Shown: piece by piece, positions 27,291-64,000 of the stretch
How positions within the stretch are numbered: the stretch's first letter is position 1
How the letters are laid out: each line of letters starts with the position of its first letter
Assembly: GCA_002794785.1 (NCBI GenBank)
Contig: NBBA01000011.1
Location: 1,364,001 to 1,428,000 of the forward strand
Direction: 5' to 3'
From: Coniferiporia sulphurascens
Lineage: Eukaryota > Basidiomycota > Agaricomycetes > Hymenochaetales > Hymenochaetaceae
Length of the DNA stretch: 64,000 bases
Program-made: the position numbers and the translations under genes
Notes under the pieces: model-generated
The model's input: the letters and a program-made list of their open reading frames with translations, nothing else
What the model was told of the DNA's origin: nothing
The model's database searches: none

Positions 27291-28821
27291 TTAGCGTATA
27301 ATGGTCCGAGAAAACATGTCTTCGCTGCGAAGGTCGATCTCCTGCTTTCCGAACACTTTGTAGATCCTGATCGAATCATCTGAGCCGCAGGTCACGAGTC
27401 GTGTCCCATCGGGGTTCAGGCAACTATGCGTGATGCGTCCATGGGGCGCGTCGAACACCTTGCCCGTCAGCTCGCCTTGGGGGTAGCTATGCACGAGTAC
27501 GGACTGCTTTCGCGGCGCGGGCAGCACTGCGCCGACAGCTGGGGCAAACGCGTATCCGTGCGTCGACACGATTTCGCGGCAGCTCTGAGCGAAATGCAGA
27601 GACGTCACTTGCGAGTAGGTATTGATCACGAGCTTCTTCGGTCGCCCGCGCGCAGCGTCCCAGAAGCGAATCGCCCCGTCCTTCGTTCCTCCGCCAGTCG
27701 CGAGCAAGTCGGGAGACCAAGGACACCACGCAAGTGCCTTCACAGTCGAAAGATGCCTCCGCGCACGCCACCTACACCCAAGGCTCCCTAGGTCAGTGTT
27801 AGGGGATGAGTCTTTTGCGCTAGAACTCCTTGGGCTCGAATCTACGCTTGGTGAGGGGTCAGGACTTGAGAACAGGGGTGGTTCAAATCCGAATGTCGCA
27901 AGAGGTGCTGACTTGCTCGCTCGGGCGTCCCAGCAGACGACGACACCGTCACCGCCACCGGTTGCCAAGAAACGACCGTCCGAATTCCATTCAACACCAC
28001 ATATTCTTGCCCTGTGCGACCTGATGGTCCTGCCACCTTTTTGCTCGCGCATGTCGAACTGCCGCAAATGCCCAGTTTGGTATCCCACCGTCACCACATT
28101 CGCGTCTTTCCAGCAGAAATCCCCTACGAAGTCCTTCTCATTGTGCGGAGTAAATTCACGCATAAGGGTGTGCAATTCGGGCTCATAGATGCGTACGAAG
28201 CCCCAATCATTGCCAACTGCGAGTACAGCTGAATCGGGGTTCCAACCAACGCATGTCACACTCTCATTTGCTCCGATGTGCACCACGCGCCCGATAGTTT
28301 GTGTCTTCATATTTCGGAAGACAACGGAAGAGTTCATTGCGACAGCCAGAAGGTCTTTGCTGCTCCAAGCCGCAAGGCGTGAATAGAAGTCGTCATCGAG
28401 TCCCGGTGCCCCGAGACATGTCTCCGGCTGTGCGCAGAGGTTTGTAGAGGCCGATGTAGCAGATGGAGGCGCGGGTATTTCGTAAAGGCTTCTTATAAGA
28501 CGTTGCTGTTCTTTGCGGAACGGCACAACATTTCGAGGTTCATTGGCAGGGTCAACATTTTCTTGTGAGTGAAAGTAAAGACGCTTGTCTCCGGCCTCGC
28601 CTATTGCCTTCGCAAGACGTCGGGATCGTGGTGTTGCGCACATGGGAATAGTATGTTCAGCAGAATTAGCTACAAAGCGATCGCGCTGTAAACACACACA
28701 GTTCAAAAGGCTGAATATAAGGAGATGGCGGGGTAAAACGCACTGAAGACTTGGTCTTATGTGACACGCGCTGTTCACTGGGCCCAGCCAGCTCATCCTG
28801 CGCGATCGCGAAGCTCGCCAT
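27291..28821 (-). CDS. Cdc20/Cdh1-family WD40 APC/C activator-like protein
   Basis: WD40 propeller protein of the family that activates the anaphase-promoting complex. Exons 28821-28744 and 28685-27291 (58-nt intron), 1473 nt, 490 aa counted from the first in-frame ATG. The frame stays open upstream beyond 28923 through a Lys/Arg-rich segment, so a further 5' exon is likely. Family marks: repeats with IRSHRARICGVEWNSDGRFL, LATGGGDGVVVCWDARA, VKALAWCPWSPDLLATGGGT and RLVTCGSDDSIRIYKVFG, and the C-terminal Ile-Arg tail (TIIR), which in this family docks on the APC/C. The expected C-box (D-R-[FY]-I-P-x-R) is degenerate: DRFVANS directly after the intron. An acidic/Ser insertion interrupts one blade (PSPSVDSSPRSSSAK). 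It may be a diverged or meiotic paralogue. Confidence 0.85.
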
Positions 28822-29586
28822 CGAGCTCCGCCGTCTCTTCGCGTGCCCATTATTTTGGATTCTGAAGGGTAAAAATTTCTTGTCGAATTTGCACTGTACA
28901 CTCTCGTCGTCTGAGCTGCTCAAGTGGTTGCACAGTGCATCAACACGGTTGGTGAAGTTTAGTAAGAAAATCTTGGTAATTACCTCATTGCCATCGTTAA
29001 TAACCCAAGTTCCTCTTGTTATGTACTCAGCCAGTCCGTTAGTATAAGATTATATAGAGATTGTGCGATAAGCCGAAGGTATCAGTGACAGGACCGTAAT
29101 GGTTGGAGCAAGGGTTACACGGCGACGAGGCACCAACGCGTGACGTAGATAAGGCGCGTCTCGCAAAGCACTGGCATAGAGTCATCAATTGTCCGACATT
29201 CGTACAATGACTTGGAAATTTGCACAAAAGCTTTCCACTAAATTACACATAGCTTCTCTATTGTATTACGAAAGCACGACATGCCGTGAAAGAGGCAAAC
29301 AAAACAAGAGACATGCCCATGTTCAGGGCCGTCGGGCGCAAGCGACTTCCATTCACCCGAACATGCAGCAGGAAGGATATAACCGACAGCCCCATTCTGA
29401 CGAACAGATGTGATTTCGAGCTTAAACATGCCAGCATCTCATACGTTCACGCGGCGGAGATATCCAAGTGCTGCGATATGACCTAAACTTAGGTGTCTAT
29501 AAGAGATGGATTTTGTGAGAATAACACATGGAATGGCAACAAGTACAGAGGAATTGAAGGATGAAAGACGAACTCATATAACTGAC
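28822..29586. other. Upstream region of the Cdc20-like gene
   Basis: The part up to about 28940 is probably coding or 5' leader of the Cdc20-like gene (open frame, basic residues KRRRSS). The rest, up to 29586, shows no supportable gene. Confidence 0.4.
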
Positions 29587-37199: not shown

Positions 37200-39016
37200 T
37201 TACTCTTTTCGGAACTTCTGGTAGTAGTGGATGAGACCGGTCGTCTGTATTGGAGGTAGTCAGCAAGGAGATCGGCAACGGTAACAGTAAACTTGCCGAG
37301 CTGTCGTGGCCGGTCACATCCGACGGTCTCTCAAGCTGCGCAAGGATGGCCTTCGCCAGCACTTTGCCGAGTTCAACACCCATTTGGTCTTATCTCGCAA
37401 TCAGCACCAATCGCGCGACCAAACGGAGGAAGCTTCTCACCATAGGAGTTGATGCCCCACACCGCTCCCTGGACGAAAATCTTATGCTCATAAAGCGCAA
37501 CGAGTGCGCCGAGCGTCGATGGTGTTAACAGCGGGAAGATGATACTGTTGCTCGGACGATTACCCTCGAACACCTTCGACTTTACGAGCGTCTCTGATGC
37601 ATTCGGGCCGAGCTCATCACGCACTTGCTCCTCTGTCTTACCGAACGCAAGCGCTTCGGGCTGCGCGAAGAAGTTACTAAGCAGGATGCGGTGGTGCTTA
37701 GAGTTGGCAATCGGATTATGCGTCGTTGCGGGCGCAAGGAAGTCGGCAGGGATGAGTTTCGTGCCCTGGTGAACAAGTTGGTAGAACGAGTGTTGACCAT
37801 TTGTGCCGGCCGCTCCCCAGATAATCGGCCCTGTCTGGTAATCTACCCGACGACCATCTTTGGTGATAAACTTGCCGTTGGACTCCATGTCACCCTGCTG
37901 GAAGTAGTCGGCGAATTTATGCAAGTACTGGTCGTACGGAAGCAGGGCATGAGTTTGCGCCCCGTAGAAGTCATTGTACCAAATGCCAAGAACGGCAAGA
38001 ATAACAGGTAGGTTGTTCTCCAACGGCGTCTCTCGGAAGTGTTTGTCCATGCCATGAGCACCCTTAAGGAGTGCCTCGAAGTTGTCATAACCAATGACAA
38101 GCGCGATGGAAAGGCCGATGGCCGACCAGAGTGAGTATCGTCCACCTACCCAATCCCAGAACTGGAACATGTTCTCTTCAGCGATACCGAAGGCGGTGAC
38201 GGCTTTGGTGTTGGTGCTGAGCGCGACGAAGTGCTTCGCGACGTGAGCCTTGTCCTTGGCGTGCTCGAGGAACCATGCGCGCGCACTTTCCGCATTCGTG
38301 ATCGTCTCCTGCGTCGTGAACGTTTTGCTTGCAACGATGAAGAGCGTTGTTTCGGCGTTGCAAACGCGGAGCGTCTCGGCGAGGTGCGTGCCGTCAATGT
38401 TGGACACAAAGTGCGCGGTGAGGTCGCGCTTCGCATACGGCTTGAGCGCTTCAGTGACCATGACGGGTCCGAGGTCGGAACCACCGATACCGATATTAAC
38501 GATAGTGTCAATCGTTTTGCCAGTGTAGCCCTTCCATCTGCCACTGCGAACAGCATCCGAGAATTCGCGAATGTGAGCGAGTACTTCGTGAACCTCCTCC
38601 GTGCCGGACTCGGGGATAGACCATTGACTGAAGTTTCGGAGTGCGATGTGCAGTACAGCGCGATCTTCGGACGTGTTGATGTGCTTGCCGCTGAACATTT
38701 CATCGCGAGTCTGTTCAACGCCGGCCTCCCTGACTAGCTCGAAAAGCGTGCTCAGTACGGGCTTGGTGACGAGGTTCTTGGAGTAGTCGAGCAAAAAGGT
38801 CGTTGCGGGGTCATCCTGGGAGGTGTACTCCTTGCTGAAGTTGGCGAACCTGTCTGGATCTTGGGCAAAAAGATCCTTGAGGATCAGTGTTGAGTGTTGC
38901 TCATCGTAGATCTTCTGGAGCTTCTTCCACGCGGGGTACTCTGAATCTTGGCTTTAGCGACAACTATGAGGCAGCTCCTGGGTACACCTCGTACCAGATG
39001 CAAGACTTCCGGGCAT
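37200..39016 (-). CDS. PGI1: Glucose-6-phosphate isomerase
   Basis: Interconverts glucose-6-phosphate and fructose-6-phosphate in cytosolic glycolysis and gluconeogenesis. Exons 39016-38995, 38940-37441, 37388-37297, 37244-37200; 1659 nt, 552 aa, the usual length. Recognised blocks: [36 protein letters not shown], the sugar-phosphate region [48 protein letters not shown], and [19 protein letters not shown], ending [12 protein letters not shown]. Exon 1 is only 22 nt (MPGSLAS). The third intron (donor at 37296) is GC-AG (TCG|GCAAGT) and its removal restores [12 protein letters not shown]. Confidence 0.96.
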
Positions 39017-54174: not shown

Positions 54175-55721
54175 TTACCACGCCTTGTTAAGAAGTTTGG
54201 TGATGAGCCCGTTTTGCTTTTGCTGCGGAGGTTCGTCGTTGAAGAAGACGCCGATAGCTCCTGTACGACTCTCAATATGCAACTCGTCCAAGTAGCGTGC
54301 ACCCATGTGTTCAGAAAAGACTAGAGATAGCCGGATCAGCACAATGTGTCGTCGTTCGAACAATGGAGGTGGAGAGGTGAATTGGTAGAAATACGTACCT
54401 TCGGTAGGGTTAGTCCCAACGAAGTAACTGCCCCTCGCGTTTTTCCGTTGCTCGTACACCGCAGTAACGACTCCTTCCATCTCCTCAGAGAATTGAACTG
54501 GATGACGCGATGTGAATGCCAGATGGCCATCTGTACTCGTCCCCGCCGCACTACCAGCACTCTTTTCGGTATTCCATCCACTGGAACTGCCGCCGGCCGG
54601 GAGGTATATACTAGATGATGACGCAAACGTCGCGCGAGCCGGAGAGTCTGCAGAATCTGAGCGTGTAGGTGAATTGGCGAGCACAGATCCCACAAAGGTG
54701 CGCGGGATCCCGACGGAGATGTTCCCATACTTGGAGCTTAGGTGTATTCGCAGTCGCTGATGCGATTGTGCATGCTTAAAGTGTGCAAATTTGGCGTTTG
54801 AAAAATGACTGCAGATAGGGAAGGAGTATACTCACTATTCGAAGGGTGATAGAACCACCCTCGCTTCGAATATCAATGTCTGCGAAGGATTTGGTTTTTT
54901 GCGGCCACGAGAGCTCAGGGGGAGGGGAAGTCCAGCCATTACTCCAATAATCGCTGTCTTCATCCATCTTCATAAATCCGCCTTTGTAATGTTCACCCCT
55001 GTCCCCATCCTGACTCCCGCTTCTGTTTTTGCCCCTCGCCCTCCGCCTTCCACCCATTGCGCACCCTTCTCTCACCCAAACATCAACGCACACATCTCCG
55101 CTGCGCGTCACCAGACATAAGTTCGTGCGTTTCCCCTTGCCCTTTGCATTTCTCTTCCCGTCAACGAGGAGCACGTCCGGATCGTCCGGGAGAAGACAAT
55201 CTGGGACCGAAAGTTTAGGGTCGATCGCGAAAGAGCCTGTGATGGCAGCGGCGCCGCGTTGCACATATACATTGTTCGCCGCGCGTAAGTGCGATGGTGG
55301 ACCTTGGCGATGTAGGGGAAGTGAAGCTAGTGTGAACATAGGTGTTGTGGATCCGGTTGGGATGGAGAGCTGGGAGGTAGATGGGGATGGCACGAGAGCG
55401 GGAGATATTGGGCCATGGGGGACAAGCGTCTGTGTTGACTCGGAATACGAGCTGCCGAGGGCGAATGATGACGTTGAGGACTGTACACTGTGCGACGGGA
55501 ACGCAGCAGAGCGCGGCTGGTGATATGCTTGGACGCGCAAAGTGCTTGCTAAAGACAGAAGGCTGTCTGCAGCTGCAGGCACTGAGCCCCGCCTAGGCGA
55601 ATACGGCGGTAGAGACTCTCTCTGTAAAGTAGCTAAGTCAAAGAAAACCCCTTTTGTAAATGCTTGACGGAATGCGCACCCTGTCTTTTTCCTTGACATC
55701 AATCTCGTCCAAGAGGATCAT
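54175..55721 (-). CDS. DUF7330-like protein B
   Basis: Paralogue of protein A, same layout. Exons 55721-55680, 55621-54836, 54756-54399, 54320-54175; 1332 nt, 443 aa. The short first exon (MILLDEIDVKEKDR) joins RESLPPYSPRR, then a Ser/Pro-rich low-complexity part, then VYVQRGAAAITGSFAIDPKL, TRSGDVCVDVWV, a Lys/Arg and acidic insertion, ADIDIRSEGGSITLRI, SSKYGNISVGIPRTFVGS, and the end LHIESRTGAIGVFFNDE. It shares with A the G-x-F-x-IDP and N-x-[SR]-VGIPR-[TS]-FVG signatures and the intron after the ...I(V/T)(K/L)(I/R)I strand. Function unknown. Confidence 0.87.
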
Positions 55722-56513: not shown

Positions 56514-58247
56514 ATGATCGCTTCCGGTACCCCCAGACGCTGGACTCAACCACCTACAGACCTCAGTGGACCAGATGCTCTGCCGTCATATGGTGCTCCT
56601 CATTCTATGCCCGTTTTCCCGCCAGATTATGCCCTACCAAGTAAACCGGAGCGTGAAGATACCATCGACTCCGACAAACTAATTCAGGATATCCGTGAAA
56701 TGTCCCATAATGTATTCACGACGCAGCAGTTGCTCGACAAGGTTTCCAATGTCCTTATTGAACTAACCCGGTACAATAACTCGGACAAGAAATTGCTAAA
56801 CATCCGTTACGGGTGGGACAAACTGGCGAAGGTATTTGTTTTATCTGAGTGATTACAGTTGAACCAATAAATCGCCCCCTCTCAAGGATTTCGCTGTGAT
56901 CGTCCTAAAGACAAGAAGACTAGCATCTGCGGGAGCTCAGACGATAGCAGGTCAGTGACTCTTTTAGCAAGAATGGACGACACCAACAGTCGTCCAGATT
57001 TCACCCAGAATCTAGGCCCATTTCTCGGGAGCTCTGAAGTCTCCGCGAATGACAAAATGGGTGAGATAGCGGATTACCGCGAGGTGCGTCCATCGACGAC
57101 TTACCTAATTCTCAAGCTTACCCGTATATCTCATCGCCTAGGGTATTAGAGAATCTAAAGGCTACAAGGAAGCTGAAGTCCTACGCTCAGAATTGCACGC
57201 AGTCATGCAACAAGTCAAAGCCTTTGAAAGCTCCTGGACGGCTTACACGGCACAAACGGCACATTCGTTAAGTTTGGCCAGTTCGATAAAGGATATACAG
57301 CAGGACGTGAAAATGTAACTATATCATTTATCAACTTGTAACGTATAGTTCCCGGCATGCTTATTTGACACCCAAATTTAGAGCAGGAAACCTAGTACGC
57401 TAAGCAAGTTCCAGGATAGACCCTCCGGACTGATCATCGGTCTCTTTGCTTAGCTTCTGCAGCTCGCAGCACGAACTGTGACCGAGGGGGTGGGCGCTGC
57501 TTTCATAATCGCAACGGGCGCCCTTTCGAAGAACATCCCCCACATCGCAACGGCCATCCCGGTATGTCTTACGGCATGGATCCACGCTTCCTAATCAAAC
57601 TCACATTTTCCTTTCTCTTTTCTTCCTCACTTACGATCCCGCTAGTTGGTGAAATTAATGGGCAGCGATTTCGTTGATACTTGCAGAGCGTTCAAGGAAA
57701 GGCGACGTGAGCGTGCTTTGGCTCAAATACTTCAGGTAGCAGCTTAAAGAAAGCCGACATTTTGATATCACAGATTTGAAGAAACAACTACGCGCAAAGA
57801 CGGAGCTCCTGTCGCAGGACTTCGACAAGAAGATGAGGGGAAAGAACGCAATATCAGGCTGCGATCCCAAACTCGCTTCGCTGCAGATGTCACTGGACGT
57901 TTTCGCGGGAATCTGGACTGCCGTACGTATTTTCTTTTCAGCTTTTACCCATCCCCCGCTAATAAATGCGACAGATGATAACGGACCTTGATGCATTGCA
58001 TCTGTTGTTCGAACCCGCTCAGAGCGAGGATGGTCACCATTCAGTAAGCCTCGTCCTCACCTATACCGAGTTCTTGCGCCTGATCGCGTATCCTGTGTGC
58101 TAGCATCTTGACCGACAGCTCGAGGAGATATTCGACTCGTACACCCACATCCAGAAGGCATTGAATCTGTATGCGCGAAACATGTCGTCTTTTGGCTCCG
58201 GATCCGCATTTTTGTGTGAGATCGAACACTCACTTCACCTCGCATGA
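56514..58247 (+). CDS. Single-module helical protein with conserved exon architecture
   Basis: Function not recognised. Ten exons: 56514-56831, 56887-56950, 56998-57083, 57142-57314, 57382-57394, 57463-57561, 57646-57706, 57774-57922, 57975-58043, 58104-58247; 1176 nt, 391 aa. A Pro/Ser-rich N-terminus (DALPSYGAPHSMPVFPPDYA) precedes long helices, a central hydrophobic segment (TEGVGAAFIIATGALSKN), and a C-terminal coiled coil (HLKKQLRAKTELLSQDF ... GIWTA). Exon 5 is a 13-nt micro-exon. Exon lengths and borders match the minus-strand modules at 58887-63620: WDKLAK|DF (64-nt exon), IAG|DF (86 nt), GIWTA| and a 69-nt exon. This shared structure fixed several ambiguous joins. A helical-bundle protein that contacts membranes is possible but unproven. 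Confidence 0.82.
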
Positions 58248-58886
58248 AGCCAGTCTACGCGCTAGACATTTGAAAGATGTAGGGTTAGTACTACTCTCGT
58301 GCTTTCCGAATTAACGGCGTCTGCGCCGGTCATCTACTATATTCCGAGCACGCAGGCCGTGATTGTGGGATCCTGACACGGGCTGTCCTAGGCTTTTCCG
58401 CACTCGCGCATCATTTATTTGCATTGTCTCTATACTCTGTAATTTTATACGTGTACCGATAAGGAGTAAACGTGGACTACCTGCGCGTTGAACACAGCTG
58501 ATATACAGAGAACAAGAATGAGGTACACGGCATTTGACGGATGAGTCAGCCACAAAGTTCAGTTTGCGTTTATGTGATACCGTAAGTTATAGCTTCTCAT
58601 GCCCGAGTGACACTGGGCTTTGTCCAATACAACATGAGGCATACGGGGATAGTTTTGAGCAGCACGGTGTGTTGCAGCGTTAATGGTTTCATTGAGGCTT
58701 CGTTTTACTCAACATAAGTAATGACTCCGATTCTATAAGTACCATTAGGGAAAAGATATCACTTTAAAACGCATGCTCATTCTACAACGAAAGACCTGCT
58801 AACAAGCAGCAGTGTCGCACCGTCTGAAATGGCGTGTTAAAAAAAAAGAAGACGATATATCACTGGTACAAAACGTGAAGAGCAAA
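58248..58886. other. Convergent spacer
   Basis: 639 bp between two convergent module genes; 3' ends only. No gene supported. Confidence 0.5.
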
Positions 58887-61800
58887 CTAATTTGTGCATG
58901 AACGGGCTTTACGAAGTAATCCCCCGAAAAAGCTGGAGATCTTCTCGGAAGCTTTTTTAAATATTCCGGCATCGCGACTTCGGGGCAACAGCTGATTGCT
59001 GGCAGAGTGCATTGTGTCATCCGACGGCACCTCCGCGTGCGTAATCGCCCACAAAAGATCGTACAGGAATTTATACAACTCCTGCGTAGCTGCTACCCTC
59101 CTGTTAAATAGCTGGATTATGCATTAATAATCCAGTTAATATGTGGAAACAGGCTGCTGAACAACTAACGTCCTCGTGCATGCCCTTTTCCGTGACAATC
59201 CTCAATTGAGTTTCGAGTTCGACGGTGTCGGCGCACAGCTAACTTGCATTCAGATTTTTTTTGGAAGGATTAATAAAGTGCTTATATCTCACCGCATTCC
59301 ACACAACCGAAATGGCTGCAAGCTGTTCAGAAATTTGTTCAATTTCTTCGCTACACCTTTCGGTATGTTCTCCCCAGGCATTCTCTCGCTGCGTCGCAAC
59401 TTTCCTCTTCCTGGCTATGTCTTCTTCAAGTCCTAATTAACTGGTGGTAAGCGTGAGATGACACGCTGATAGCTGTTTACTTACTATGTGCGTTCGCACT
59501 TTCCGACTAAAAATGCGCTCGATTGAATACGGCGCTTCCGCTCCAGGTTTAAAAAAAGATTGAACATACCGACAAAGCCTCGACAAACTTCTCCAAAACT
59601 TCACGTTTGCCCCAGAAGAGGCCTAGCACGGTGACGATTCCTACCTCTACACGACTACCAACTGGGTTCACTTTGTTGGGTTCTATACAAATACCTGCAA
59701 GCTAAGATCCGGTTAGAGTGCGTACTGCATAATGCAACACACACGACGCCATACCTTCATCCTGGAGGGCCGACAATTGTCGTTAATTTTTAATTGTTAA
59801 ACAGTCGAGAGTTACTTACCCCTTTAGTTGATCCTCCAGGCTCTCAATTTCTTCAGTCAACTTTTCTTTCCCCGAAAAGTCGGTAATCGAGATATCGAAG
59901 CTGAATTTCTGTACGTCCTTGCGTAGGACAAATATTTCCCTAGCAAGGGCATACATATTTTCAGAGTTGGGACCGAATAGTCTGGAACTCTCCACGTATA
60001 GCAGCTGAATAGAGACGCCCATCAGTACAGCTCACGGTGGGGTCGCTAACACCTACTGCTCTAAACTCGGCCAGTTGGCGTAATTTTATTTCCATACTAG
60101 AATCGCCTTTGCTCCCAATAAAACCGCAGAAGTTGTTGGCAAAGTCTGAAGTCGGGTATTGTTAGCGTCCATATGGGGTAGGCTACAGGACCCCCGAACG
60201 TAAAAAGAACACGAGCACAGAACTGACCATGTATTCGCCGCGCACTGTGTGATACTATGAAGTTTATCCTTAGCACGATCTTCTCAAACGTCTTTTTGAA
60301 CAAGCTTCAGTACTCAGGCTCGCACCCGATACAAAAAAAATACCTACCTCGCCCAATTCCGACCATGTTGTATAATATTGACTTATCAACACCTTATCAG
60401 AACCAGGTGGTGGGCTTTTCCAACGCGCTTGGACGGTCCGGAAAGAGGCTCTGATAGTTTTAATCCTCTCGGGAAGTTGGCGGGCTTTTTCAAGACTGTT
60501 GTGATGATGTTCCTTAAGACCTTGTGCATATGTTTCGTGGTCGTTATCGGCTGCAGCTACCGAATCTACGGCGCTGTGGGTGTCAGGCATGTCGTTCGAA
60601 CGATCTGGCCTGTCAACGTCTGTTGGTGCGGCACCAGATTGGCTCGACTTGGTGGTCCGCCTACTTGTCGTGTGGCCACTCGTGCTATGTTTCGTCCCAC
60701 TGCTACACTTTTCCTCCAATGGCTTATCCGTCTCAGCCTAGAGTCAATCCATCAATTAGATATCGTTGGCAAGCCGGAAATCTTCGCTACGAGAATTCGA
60801 GTTACGTACATGCGGAAGCGGAGGCTGCGGTTGTTCGGAATAAGGAATGTCGACATTGCTCCTACTGGGGGAAGGGCTCCTTTCCTGATGTCGAATAGTA
60901 GTAAATCCAACGCCTCGACGCTCTAGTTACGGGACGAACTTACATTATCATTTGATGCCGCCGGGCTCGGGGCATTGCCGGTGTCAGGCGTGCCGTTCGA
61001 GTGGTCTGGCCTGACGGCATCTGATGGCGTGGCGCCAGAACGGCTGGACTTGGTGGATCGCCTACTCGGCGTGTGGCCGCTCGTGCTATGTTTCGTCCCA
61101 CCGCTACGCTCTTCCTCCATTGGCTTATCCGTCTCAACCTAGAGTTAATCCATCAAATTAGATATTGTCAGCACATTGGAAATCTTCGCTACGAGAATCT
61201 GAGTTACGCACGTGCGGAAGCGGAGGCTGCGGTTGTTCGGAATAAGGAATGTCGACATTGCTCCCATTCGAAGAAGGGCCCCTTTCCTGATATCGAATAG
61301 TAATAAATCCAACGCCTCGACGCTCTAGTTACGGGATGAACTTACATTATCATTTGATACCGCCGGGCTTGGGGCATTGCCGGTGTCAGGCGTGCCGTTC
61401 GAGTGATCTGGTCTATCGGCATCTGTTGACGCGGCGTCAGAACGGCTGGACTTGGTGGATCGCATACTCGGCGTGTGGCTACTCGTGCTATGTTTCGAAA
61501 CAGGAGGGTCGTCACCATCCGTTTGCGATGTGCCAGTGCCGGTTTGAAGTTCCGGTATTTTACCGAATCCCCCGACTCCTGAGTGGTCAGACCTTAGTGA
61601 ACGGACTGATGCCGCGGGACTGTGGAAAATGATGTCGGGGATATCACTCGGTTGTTCATGTGCAAGCTCCCAAAGTACTTCTCGAAGGCGTTTGTACACA
61701 TCAATCAAAGGTTCAAGCCGTCTTTGGAATATCTTATAGAAATAATGATAGTCACAAGAACCACCTTATCGAGTATTCGTGTGACTCACTGTTTGGTGGG

Positions 61801-63616
61801 AAGCTCTACTGGTCACTAGTTGCAGCCGCATATCGAGTTCAACAACATCTGCAAAAAGCTACAAGACAAATCTCAGAAAAACCTCATTCAATGTTAACAT
61901 ACAAAAGTTGCTCACCGCCTTCCATACAATGGAAACTGCACGCAGATGGTCGGAAATACAGGCAGTCTGCTTCTCGCAGGTTTCCAGATGATCGCGCCAG
62001 ATTTTATCATTTTTTCCAATCCGCTCATCCATCTTCTGCTTCAAAGTCTTCTTGTGCTCTAAGCAAACGCATAAAGGGGCGATTTGCTTTCAGCAGTGTT
62101 TCCGAGAATATTCAAATAACTTCCACCAACCTCGTACATTTTGCATCAGTTTGCGGCGTCCATCCTCTTGGAAGGACTGTAAAAAAGGCATGAAACAATG
62201 ATTGAATTGAAAGATGAGCTAGACGTACAATACCGGTGGGTAATAACCTGAGATCAGTTTTGCTCAAAGACGGACTTCCTTGTCGACTATCGATCATGGT
62301 TAGTACAGTGAACATAGTATAAGCCAATCATAATTTGTCGACATACCCGATTTCTATATTCGCGACCTATATACTAATAAGCCTGAATCCACAATGCTAA
62401 ACTCTGTGATTAATACCTCTTCCTCAAGTCTAACGCATCCATAGTGGTTCGGAAGTGAGTGGTGACTACAGAGCTGGTAACAATCGTGAAGAACGCACTC
62501 TTTAACTTTCGCCTCAAATATTTTCATCTCTTGCGATAGATCCCGCTTGTCAAAGATATCGTTTGATCGCATCGAGAATTCAAGATACAGGACATCCGTC
62601 CGAAGCCGATTTATTTTCTCCAAGGGTGCATACATAGCTCCCCTCCCTGTTCCAAGCGTATCTCGGCTTCCCGCGTTGAAAAGTTCCTGCAGTACTATCA
62701 TTGTGAGACTCAGAAAGATAGTGCGTACGAGAAATACTCGCACATATCTGAACCTATTCAGTTGTTCTTGCTTTTGCTCTATGGTAGCTTCGTCGTCCCT
62801 CAAAAAGTACAAAAAGCTATCGGAAAAGTCTGATATGGGATCAAAGTAATATCAGTGTCCGGAACAACGCGCATGCGTAAGGAAACATTTACCGCTTATA
62901 ATTGCCACTTCTTGAGCAGCCAATCTACTCATTTCAAGGGCCGTGTTGTTAAAATCCTAAACCGCAATGCCGTTGGGATAAGTCTCATTGATTATGAGGC
63001 TCCTGAGGAGGGAAATCACCTCATGCAGTCGTTTCCAGTCGGTGTAATACCTTCCGACCTGTTCCCGATCGAATCTGGGCACGTTTGACAGTCTCGACCA
63101 ACTCATCTGGTTATTCTCGAAAGCCTTCCTTATCTCCACGATTCGCTTTACAACATCACGTGCCTCGGATATTCTGGAAGAGAGGCTTTCATTTCGGAGA
63201 AGATTCTCGGCGGAATCCAAACGCGCTTCCATGGCTGTTGAGACAAATAATGACTGGGCGTGTTGGTTATACCGCATCCTGTCGCTACTAGAGTGGTTCC
63301 CGTTCCCAATAGACTCGTCGGAGGATGATGAAGAGAGCGTAGCGGAGTTCCTTGCCAATGGCTCTGTGGATGACGTGGCTTGTCCGGGAGAGGAGGGAGG
63401 AGACTTCCTTGAAAAGGAAGGATCCGTTCTCGTAAGGGTTACTTTCCGGAAGATTATAAGCACCTGGTGACTTACTGCTCTGGTGAAACTTACAAAAAAT
63501 TGGCTGTACTCTTCGAAACTAACGATTGGTGTGTGTTCCAAGCTTTTAGAAATTGAGGTGGGCAGCGTATAATCGGTATGATGGATCACGAGGGTGATGA
63601 GGTATACGGTACTCAA
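58887..63616 (-). CDS. Two-module helical protein (5' end uncertain)
   Basis: Function not recognised. One reading frame links two copies of the helical module. Module 1: exon ending 63020 (open to about 63616), 62956-62893, 62829-62744, 62686-62499, 62429-62417 (13 nt), 62366-62347, 62286-62229, 62176-62131, 62058-61916, 61858-61790, 61732-61346. Linker: 61286-61212, 61138-60944, 60884-60810. Module 2: 60737-60348, 60291-60228, 60145-60057, 60004-59820, 59761-59755 (7 nt), 59701-59570, 59506-59485, 59432-59293, 59238-59170, 59111-58887. All phases agree. Each module ends with VWKA| or VWNA|, a 69-nt exon and a [IL]F-x-RR helix. The linkers are Ser/Thr/Pro-rich. Module 2 keeps a hydrophobic stretch (VGIVTVLGLFWG); module 1 lacks a clear one. 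No ATG is found in the first open exon before the Met near 63276, so a 5' exon between 63620 and 63777 is likely. Two adjacent genes instead of one fused gene cannot be excluded. Confidence 0.72.
60570..61497 (-). repeat. 402-bp tandem exon-pair repeat, about 2.3 copies
   Basis: A 402-bp unit is repeated head to tail inside the linker of the two-module gene. Anchors such as cgtgctatgt occur at 60681, 61082 and 61484, and the block gttcggaataaggaatgtcg at 60834 and 61236. Each full unit contains a 75-nt exon (ending ...EQPQPPLPH), its intron, and the start of a Ser/Thr-rich exon (KHSTSGHTPSRRSTKSSRSG). Intron sequence is also conserved, so the duplication is recent. The copies nearest 61100 and 61400 are the most alike. 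Confidence 0.85.
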
Positions 63617-63777
63617 GTGCGAAGAGACGGGCTTTTTTTTAAAGGATCTTGTTAAGAAAAAGCGTAGGTTGCAAGATGGCCTGCACGTAGCCTCAAGGGA
63701 GCTTTGGTCCTACTACCGTCCTTGCGACTTCCTCGATGCAAAGCCTAGACCCCATATTCCCCCTCTTCCCCTTAGAA

Positions 63778-63980
63778 TTATCTGAGCTTCAAAGTGTCAC
63801 GATGTATGGGCACGGACTCGGCAAAGCATTCAATCTTCGGAAGTACGTTGACTTTTAGCGCCAGATGAACATGATACTCAGGGCACTCTTCCGCTATTCT
63901 CCTCGGAGGGCCAGCCAGTAAAAGCGTGTTCAGTATAGACCCTAGGGAGTCGAGGGTTTCCTTTACATATTTCTGAAAAG
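63778..63980 (-). CDS. Last exon of a neighbouring module-type gene (partial)
   Basis: A splice acceptor (TTTTCAG) at about 63981 opens a frame that starts KYVKETLDSLGSILNTLLL and runs about 66 residues to a stop at 63778-63780; the rest of the gene lies beyond the window. Its opening helix resembles the terminal exons of the modules (RR-x5-[LY]-YK-x-L...LLW), so it is probably the end of a third tandem gene of this family, but similarity is weak. The 160 bp to the next gene would be very short for a promoter. Confidence 0.45.
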
Positions 63981-64000
63981 AAAGACTGATATCAATTCGC

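Follow-up and report, generated by a model that had tools for sequence, protein, structure and literature searches.

A tandem family of helical modules with a shared exon plan in Coniferiporia sulphurascens and its possible distant relationship to the XaxA toxin family

This study was concerned with a 64,000-nucleotide stretch of the basidiomycete Coniferiporia sulphurascens (assembly GCA_002794785.1, contig NBBA01000011.1, here contig 11, positions 1,364,001 to 1,428,000 of the forward strand), which as a whole is called the window. At its right end lie a plus-strand gene with one module (gene A) and a minus-strand gene with two modules, M2 (type 2) and M3 (type 3). A first-pass annotation had described these as an array of a helical module defined by exon structure, and our analysis agrees: one largely helical module, recognised by its exon plan, is repeated in tandem. 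The exon models were obtained by three-frame reading and exon assembly of the window from 55.5 to 64 kb, with splice sites predicted from sequence. The features are as follows.

56514..58247, plus strand: gene A, 10 exons, 396 amino acids, one module, GT-AG introns; hand-assembled from sequence
56514-56831, 56887-56950, 56998-57083, 57142-57314, 57382-57394, plus strand: gene A exons 1-5
57454-57561, 57646-57735, 57782-57922, 57975-58043, 58119-58247, plus strand: gene A exons 6-10
57382..57394, plus strand: gene A 13-nt micro-exon, phase 2 to phase 0 in the hand-made model
61640..63277, minus strand: module M2 (type 2), first of the minus-strand gene, both ends approximate; exons of 258/64/86/188/13/138/46/143/69/terminal nt
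62417..62429, minus strand: M2 13-nt micro-exon
62366-62229, minus strand: M2 exon 6, with an in-frame TGA beside the hydrophobic stretch
62287..62346, minus strand: M2 candidate 60-nt intron, GTATGT...ATAG with a TACTAAC branch-like site, predicted from sequence
60579..61497, no strand assigned: M2-M3 linker region, 402-bp tandem repeat, 2.3 copies, 88% matches
58887..60536, minus strand: module M3 (type 3), second of the minus-strand gene, open throughout, phases kept
60536-60348, 60291-60228, 60145-60057, 60004-59820, 59761-59755, minus strand: M3 exons 1-5
59701-59570, 59506-59485, 59432-59293, 59238-59170, 59111-58887, minus strand: M3 exons 6-10
59755..59761, minus strand: M3 7-nt micro-exon; one automatic alignment gave 17 nt with the same start

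In the rebuilt models the exons of A, M2 and M3 correspond as had been claimed. All three share a 64-nt exon, which is followed by exons of 86/86/89 nt and 173/188/185 nt (in the order A/M2/M3, the second ending in phase 2), a micro-exon of 13/13/7 nt, exon ends at WTA/WKA/WNA, a common 69-nt exon and a terminal segment of helical character. The proposed junction motifs held in part. W-x-[KR]-L-x-[KE]|DF is found in A and M2 but not in M3, which reads WSELGE|TF, and LA-x-[RI] is found in A (LAAR) and M3 (LAGI) but not in M2 (VANI). Likewise, the statement that the modules have almost no identity applies to A (17% to M2) but not to M2 and M3, in which 10 of the 23 residues of the 69-nt exon are identical and which are 30% identical overall, a figure from an earlier M3 model. 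The automatic aligner picked a 17-nt exon elsewhere in place of the gene A micro-exon, and both the hand model and the leave-one-out alignment give 13 nt. Damage to M3 in exon 7 was considered and dropped, since this exon proved to be intact, with 22 nt and its phase kept. The open frame given as starting at 63616 opens with TTG, and the 5' end of the minus-strand gene is provisional. An open stretch, KYVKETLDSLGSILNTLLLAGPPRRIAEECPEYHVHLALKV..., lies upstream of M2 at window positions ~63800-63995 (minus strand), at the upper edge of the coordinates. No hydrophobic leader was seen by eye at the start of gene A, and the N-termini of the other copies are provisional.

The relationship of the modules was assessed by leave-one-out spliced alignment. 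The DNA of gene A, aligned with a profile of ten non-A modules, scored 158.8, and 54 control stretches (2 kb each, taken on both strands of the window's first 55.5 kb) had a mean score of 33.5 with a standard deviation of 4.2 and a maximum of 44.4. The same DNA reversed or reverse-complemented scored 31-32 with this profile. The A protein matched the ten-module profile with E = 3.1e-17 among 1001 sequences, where the best of 1000 shuffles reached 0.11. Judged by these alignments, A, M2 and M3 are homologous. The earlier view that the exon agreement exceeds chance is thus borne out by the leave-one-out and control alignments, and 13 more modelled copies, all outside the window, follow the same plan.

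The genome searched comprised 39.3 Mb in 31 contigs. Gene A as a query finds itself only; the family was found with M2, then with one copy per type and with local searches of stretches, and the counts are lower bounds. At least 17 modules are present, with module proteins of ~330-400 residues: 14 in an array of 63 kb whose start lies in the window, one degenerate copy and a pair on contig 2.

Contig 11, 1.4205-1.4830 Mb: array of 14 modules, A, M3, M2, P1430, P1432, P1436, P1438, P1454, P1456 (fragment), P1458, P1463, P1468, P1473 and P1483 (numbers give the kilobase)
Contig 11, 1.613 Mb: C11b, degenerate copy 0.13 Mb past the array, with a stop and missing exons
Contig 2, 567.8-572.1 kb: C2a and C2b

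Sixteen modules were modelled, fragment P1456 being left out. The 69-nt exon is present in all 16; initial models had 73 nt in M3, P1458, P1463, P1430 and C2b, and farther-reaching seeds gave 69. The 64-nt exon is present in 15 (12 by the aligner, and P1430, P1483 and C2b by hand re-reading with a GC donor), and P1468 has 63 nt in its place, with a broken frame (exon 2). Nine type-3 copies have a micro-exon of 7 nt; in A and six type-2 copies its length is 13 nt. Ten non-A modules share the phases 0,1,0,2,0,0,1,0,0, from which A departs only after exon 7. The aligner leans towards these exons because the seed proteins carried them, and confidence in the splice sites is lowest for exons 5-7. 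Donors of the GC-AG type (GCAAGT, GCGAGT, GCTAGT) were seen at the ends of exon 1 or 2 in P1430, P1454, P1468, P1483 and C2b.

For eight of nine chosen paralogue pairs the ratio of nonsynonymous to synonymous divergence (dN/dS) was 0.13-0.48, with dS of 0.16-2.8; the ninth pair was saturated. Values in this range are evidence that the exons are genuinely coding, and in the eight pairs the copies are old and under purifying selection. The first-pass annotation had read the strong divergence as a sign of fast evolution, a reading that these values do not support. Positive selection over whole genes is rejected for the pairs tested by the same range, a gene-wide measure that would miss a few positively selected sites and that leaves out A, which has no close relative to pair. 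The array contains broken copies, a fragment and a retroelement, as would fit turnover, but the suggested self/non-self or effector role does not follow from them. The retroelement is of Copia type, with open frames (RVT_2, rve, Pol_BBD) at ~1474.8-1478.1 kb of contig 11.

In a tree of 15 modules (exons 1-4 and 8-10) the eight type-3 modules group together (100/100); three of the 12 inner branches are firm, and A forms a long branch. A type-2 module is followed by a type-3 module in three neighbouring units: M2-M3, P1432-P1430 and P1438-P1436. In P1432-P1430 the last exon of the type-2 module and the first exon of the type-3 module are joined in a single open frame, and the unit therefore reads as one protein. 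The joints of M2-M3 and P1438-P1436 are predicted across a linker, and the exon read in the M2-M3 linker is Ser-, Thr- and Pro-rich.

The modules are ~70% helix by propensity, and their parts follow in the order long helix, short hydrophobic stretch, Arg/Lys cluster, long helix and W-containing helix. The hydrophobic stretch lies in exon 6. With a mean hydropathy of 1.1-2.4 over its best 13 residues, it is present in 12 of the 15 modules, namely in A (VTEGVGAAFIIATGALSKNIPHIATAIP), eight type-3 modules (for example VEVGIVTVLGLFW in M3) and the three stand-alone type-2 copies, P1468 with its broken exon 2 included. In type-2 modules an Arg/Lys cluster follows it, as with ERRKLKRSIREHK in P1483. 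When 11 proteins were examined for their most hydrophobic windows of 15 and 19 residues, every such window fell in exon 6 or in the W-x-A helix.

In all three fused units the type-2 tip is compromised and the type-3 partner stays open. M2 exon 6 carries an in-frame TGA unless the candidate 60-nt GT-AG intron is removed, which would take out both the TGA and the hydrophobic tip with the frame kept; in stand-alone copies the corresponding DNA is coding. The frame of P1432 exon 6 also runs into a stop, and a candidate intron predicted from sequence would remove the tip, again with the frame kept.

Contig 11, 1431726-1431802: P1432 candidate 77-nt GT-AG intron

The M2 and P1432 tips are still hydrophobic (1.37 and 1.85); in P1438 the hydrophobicity is lost (0.26), in a stretch with uncertain exons. 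Removal of the tip by introns in M2 and P1432 is possible, with decay as the rival reading. Two possible coding-to-intron conversions were thus noted in the same module exon of two fused units.

The C-termini of 12 copies were read from the last exon to the stop with no further introns. A basic, often aromatic tail is present in five of them, among these M3, whose C-terminus is FKKASEKISSFFGGLLRKARSCTN.

Basic tails: M3 FFGGLLRKARSCTN; P1430 IRRFLFFLR; P1436 FRKIFRFLR; P1454 RIRKRDRAYDTISKALHFEPRARIQDQ; P1483 KKKPWWRRWRRLFCF

Such a tail was not read between the last exon and the stop in A, P1458, P1463, P1468, P1473, C2a or C2b. Similar tails are found in other downstream frames of P1458, P1463 and P1468, reachable by an extra intron.

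The strongest link to a known family came from P1473, a type-2 copy, which matched NF033928 (XaxA, NCBIfam) with E = 2.9e-9 and 36.7 bits. Residues 111-320 of P1473, 210 residues in all, are collinear with positions 108-309 of the 339 in the model. P1468, with an X over its frame break, gave E = 0.17 and 11.1 bits, with residues 148-324 on positions 139-307 in nearly the same register. None of seven controls (five reversed, two shuffled) matched NF033928, and the best match of any control to any model was E = 1.4e-4, for a reversed sequence. The description of the module as new therefore needs one amendment: no Pfam match better than E = 0.0023 was obtained for any member among the matches listed, but one member is distantly similar to the XaxA family.

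Several results weigh against this relationship. First, the curated cut-off of NF033928 is 125 bits and the best score was 36.7; because the cut-off was not reached, the modules are not assigned to the XaxA family. Secondly, 11 of the 13 modules scanned, including A, M2 and M3, did not match NF033928 (12 modules at E <= 10, P1458 at E <= 1 only), and a search of the genome itself found nothing at E <= 1, a type of search that is hampered by the split into exons. Third, NF033928 gave matches at E <= 1 in six of 14 control genomes, and helical proteins are prone to false matches, for example ZorA at 1.8e-4 next to the reversed control. In addition, sequence searches of solved structures with A, P1473, an 11-member alignment or a type-2 alignment as queries found no XaxA, YaxA or ClyA chain and no other pore-forming protein; the best matches were a designed protein (7e-6, 11-member alignment) and assorted other chains. 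In several copies it is the W-x-A helix, and not the tip, that has the higher hydrophobicity. Lastly, the basic C-terminal tail occurs in a minority of the copies.

Comparison with known systems gives a mixed picture. The modules are like XaxA/YaxA (NF033928, alpha-xenorhabdolysin family binary toxin subunit A) in a length of ~340 residues, in the 210-residue collinear match of one copy and in helices that flank a short hydrophobic stretch followed by a basic cluster. They differ in that they score below the cut-off, are fungal and intron-rich and occur in many copies, and in that types 2 and 3 stand in one reading frame at least once. A B subunit was not recognised: the XaxB model of NCBIfam is not among the 25 families obtained at E <= 1, and the neighbouring genes were not searched for XaxB. 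The ClyA-like Nhe, Hbl and Ahl proteins, as described in published papers, share the general plan of a helical bundle with a central membrane-inserting stretch, whereas no sequence match to them was found: PF05791 (Bacillus_HBL) gave a single E = 0.7 match in the genome, under the cut-off and on another contig, and was not among the families listed for the modules (best 25 of 43 and best 25 of 62). Fungal HeLo, HeLo-like and MLKL-type domains are likewise helical with a possible membrane-acting role, but they have ~200 residues, in contrast to ~340 in the modules. HeLo, HeLo-like and MLKL were absent from these same best 25 of 43 and best 25 of 62 families, and no search was aimed at them. PADLOC gave three weak matches, and a scan of viral contigs gave 13 pattern matches, none of which was confirmed.

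Our favoured explanation is that the modules are paralogues of one mostly helical family and probably distant XaxA or ClyA-like relatives that act on membranes, which as a whole we give about an even chance. Of its parts, distant kinship with XaxA, supported by the one strong profile match, is moderately favoured, and a membrane-inserting mechanism is rated as evenly balanced; both ratings were tempered because basic tails were read in five of 12 copies and not in most. The fold, membrane insertion, oligomerisation, target and role (a stored defence protein or an intracellular effector) are inferred. The helices would form a bundle with a two-helix stalk, the tip of which would be the exon 6 hydrophobic stretch followed by the Arg/Lys cluster. 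Upon a trigger the tip would enter one membrane leaflet, the basic cluster would anchor it at the lipid head groups, and copies would assemble so that the membrane is disturbed or perforated. Such an arrangement, with the hydrophobic tip ahead of the basic residues, is in keeping with membrane insertion. In published structures, XaxA is described with a hydrophobic band followed by conserved R290, K291, K293, K295 and K301 (PMC6086661), and the stalk of XaxA and YaxA with a short hydrophobic tip that enters about half of the membrane (PMC6086661, PMC5935710). In AhlC, likened there to YaxA and XaxA, 16 hydrophobic residues reach one leaflet (PMC6602965), and a five-helix bundle is given as common to ClyA-like toxins (PMC6162564).

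The alternative that survives best is a coiled-coil family restricted to one lineage, made up of scaffold or signalling proteins with no toxin kinship, for which the XaxA match would be a helical coincidence; P1463 would perhaps be joined to a kinase, with the module serving localisation or oligomerisation. We consider this possible, if on the doubtful side. Weak matches to helical proteins in several libraries and the basic tails of five of 12 copies are in its favour, as is the region upstream of P1463. Of the three open stretches searched there, one matches protein kinases (Pkinase, E = 1.5e-9); the other two, one of them a frame of 266 codons continuing into the module, gave no match at E <= 0.001. 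The first part of the 266-codon frame, to our eye, resembles a kinase C-lobe, and a fusion of kinase and module is a possible reading of the sequence. However, a second such kinase was not found in the stretches examined around the modules, so that the kinase stands beside one copy only. Moreover, the P1473 match, over 210 collinear residues, has an E-value nearly five orders of magnitude better than that of the best control, and the exon 6 hydrophobic stretch is kept in A, eight type-3 and three stand-alone type-2 modules, which a plain scaffold would not need. The kinase exon and the separate frame into P1463 lie at ~1461.4-1463.3 kb of contig 11.

It is rather unlikely that the M2-M3 gene is a pseudogene of a real family. 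The in-frame TGA in M2 would be explained in this way, and other copies are indeed broken (P1468 by its frame break, C11b by a stop and missing exons, P1456 as a fragment). In the 15-module tree the type-2 branches of the fused units are 0.54 (M2), 1.22 and 0.97, compared with 0.15 (P1468), 0.15 (P1483) and 0.34 for the stand-alone copies, and these longer branches are in keeping with relaxed constraint. M3, however, is open throughout with its phases kept, and the type-2 tip is interrupted or degraded in three of three units while type 3 is open, a pattern that would fit selective loss of the tip.

A further alternative, which we judge unlikely, is that the modules are intracellular cell-death or incompatibility effectors of HeLo- or MLKL-like type, which would be held inactive and then enter the cell's own membranes. 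This concerns a role and is compatible with the favoured explanation. The start of A with no leader seen by eye, the turnover of copies in the tandem array and the kinase neighbour agree with it, but HeLo and MLKL are not among the families listed above. A more elaborate reading, which remains speculative and is given little weight, would be a two-component alpha-pore-forming system in a fungus, with XaxA-like type-2 and type-3 partners fused in three genes. Each fused type-2 module would have lost its tip, twice by conversion of coding sequence to intron, leaving a tip-less helper beside a tipped partner, and A, whose hydrophobic stretch is the longest, would add one more component. Finally, exon lengths might agree by chance through splice-site choice, since the initial sites were chosen by eye, many choices exist where introns are short and later seeds carried these exons. 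This is very improbable and is rejected by the leave-one-out and control alignments and by the 13 copies outside the window.

If the XaxA link is true, a bacterial protein family has a diversified, intron-rich basidiomycete branch, in which pairs of a kind encoded as separate subunits in bacteria occur in a single chain. The tipped, tip-less and fused modules would then form a natural series for finding the parts that alpha-pore-forming proteins need. Independently of this, gene prediction is put to a hard test by a plan in which 7- and 13-nt micro-exons and fixed exons of 64 and 69 nt have persisted despite synonymous divergence that is large and in part saturated. This plan may partly explain the lack of annotated relatives in protein searches. 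In a set of 5.8 billion proteins no relative of A was found (5928 candidates, E <= 0.001) and none of the 11-member alignment (best 7992 candidates by shared words, E <= 1); these were the only two queries, neither being M2, M3 or an individual type-2 or type-3 copy. Either the family is narrowly distributed or genes with micro-exons were missed in annotation. By titles and abstracts, literature searches (XaxA, YaxA, ClyA, HBL, fungi, basidiomycetes) yielded no report of fungal XaxA- or ClyA-like proteins among the papers listed, and the available portion of the main text of an article on fungal NLR effector domains does not contain xenorhabdolysin, ClyA or HBL (PMC9815663).

The same protein set does hold fungal proteins, as seen for the neighbouring DUF7330-domain gene, which adjoins the array at window positions 54776-55702 (minus strand). 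This gene had 11 matches, the best from Coniferiporia weirii (88% identity over 86% of the query), and the other named matches were from Phellopilus, Fomitiporia and Sanghuangporus, which belong to the same order as Coniferiporia. Taken by itself, this gene puts the genome close to Coniferiporia in the Hymenochaetales. On the left side of the window, frames for a CDC20/Fizzy-type WD40 protein (27291-28901, minus strand) and a phosphoglucose isomerase (37373-38794, minus strand) are ordinary housekeeping genes.

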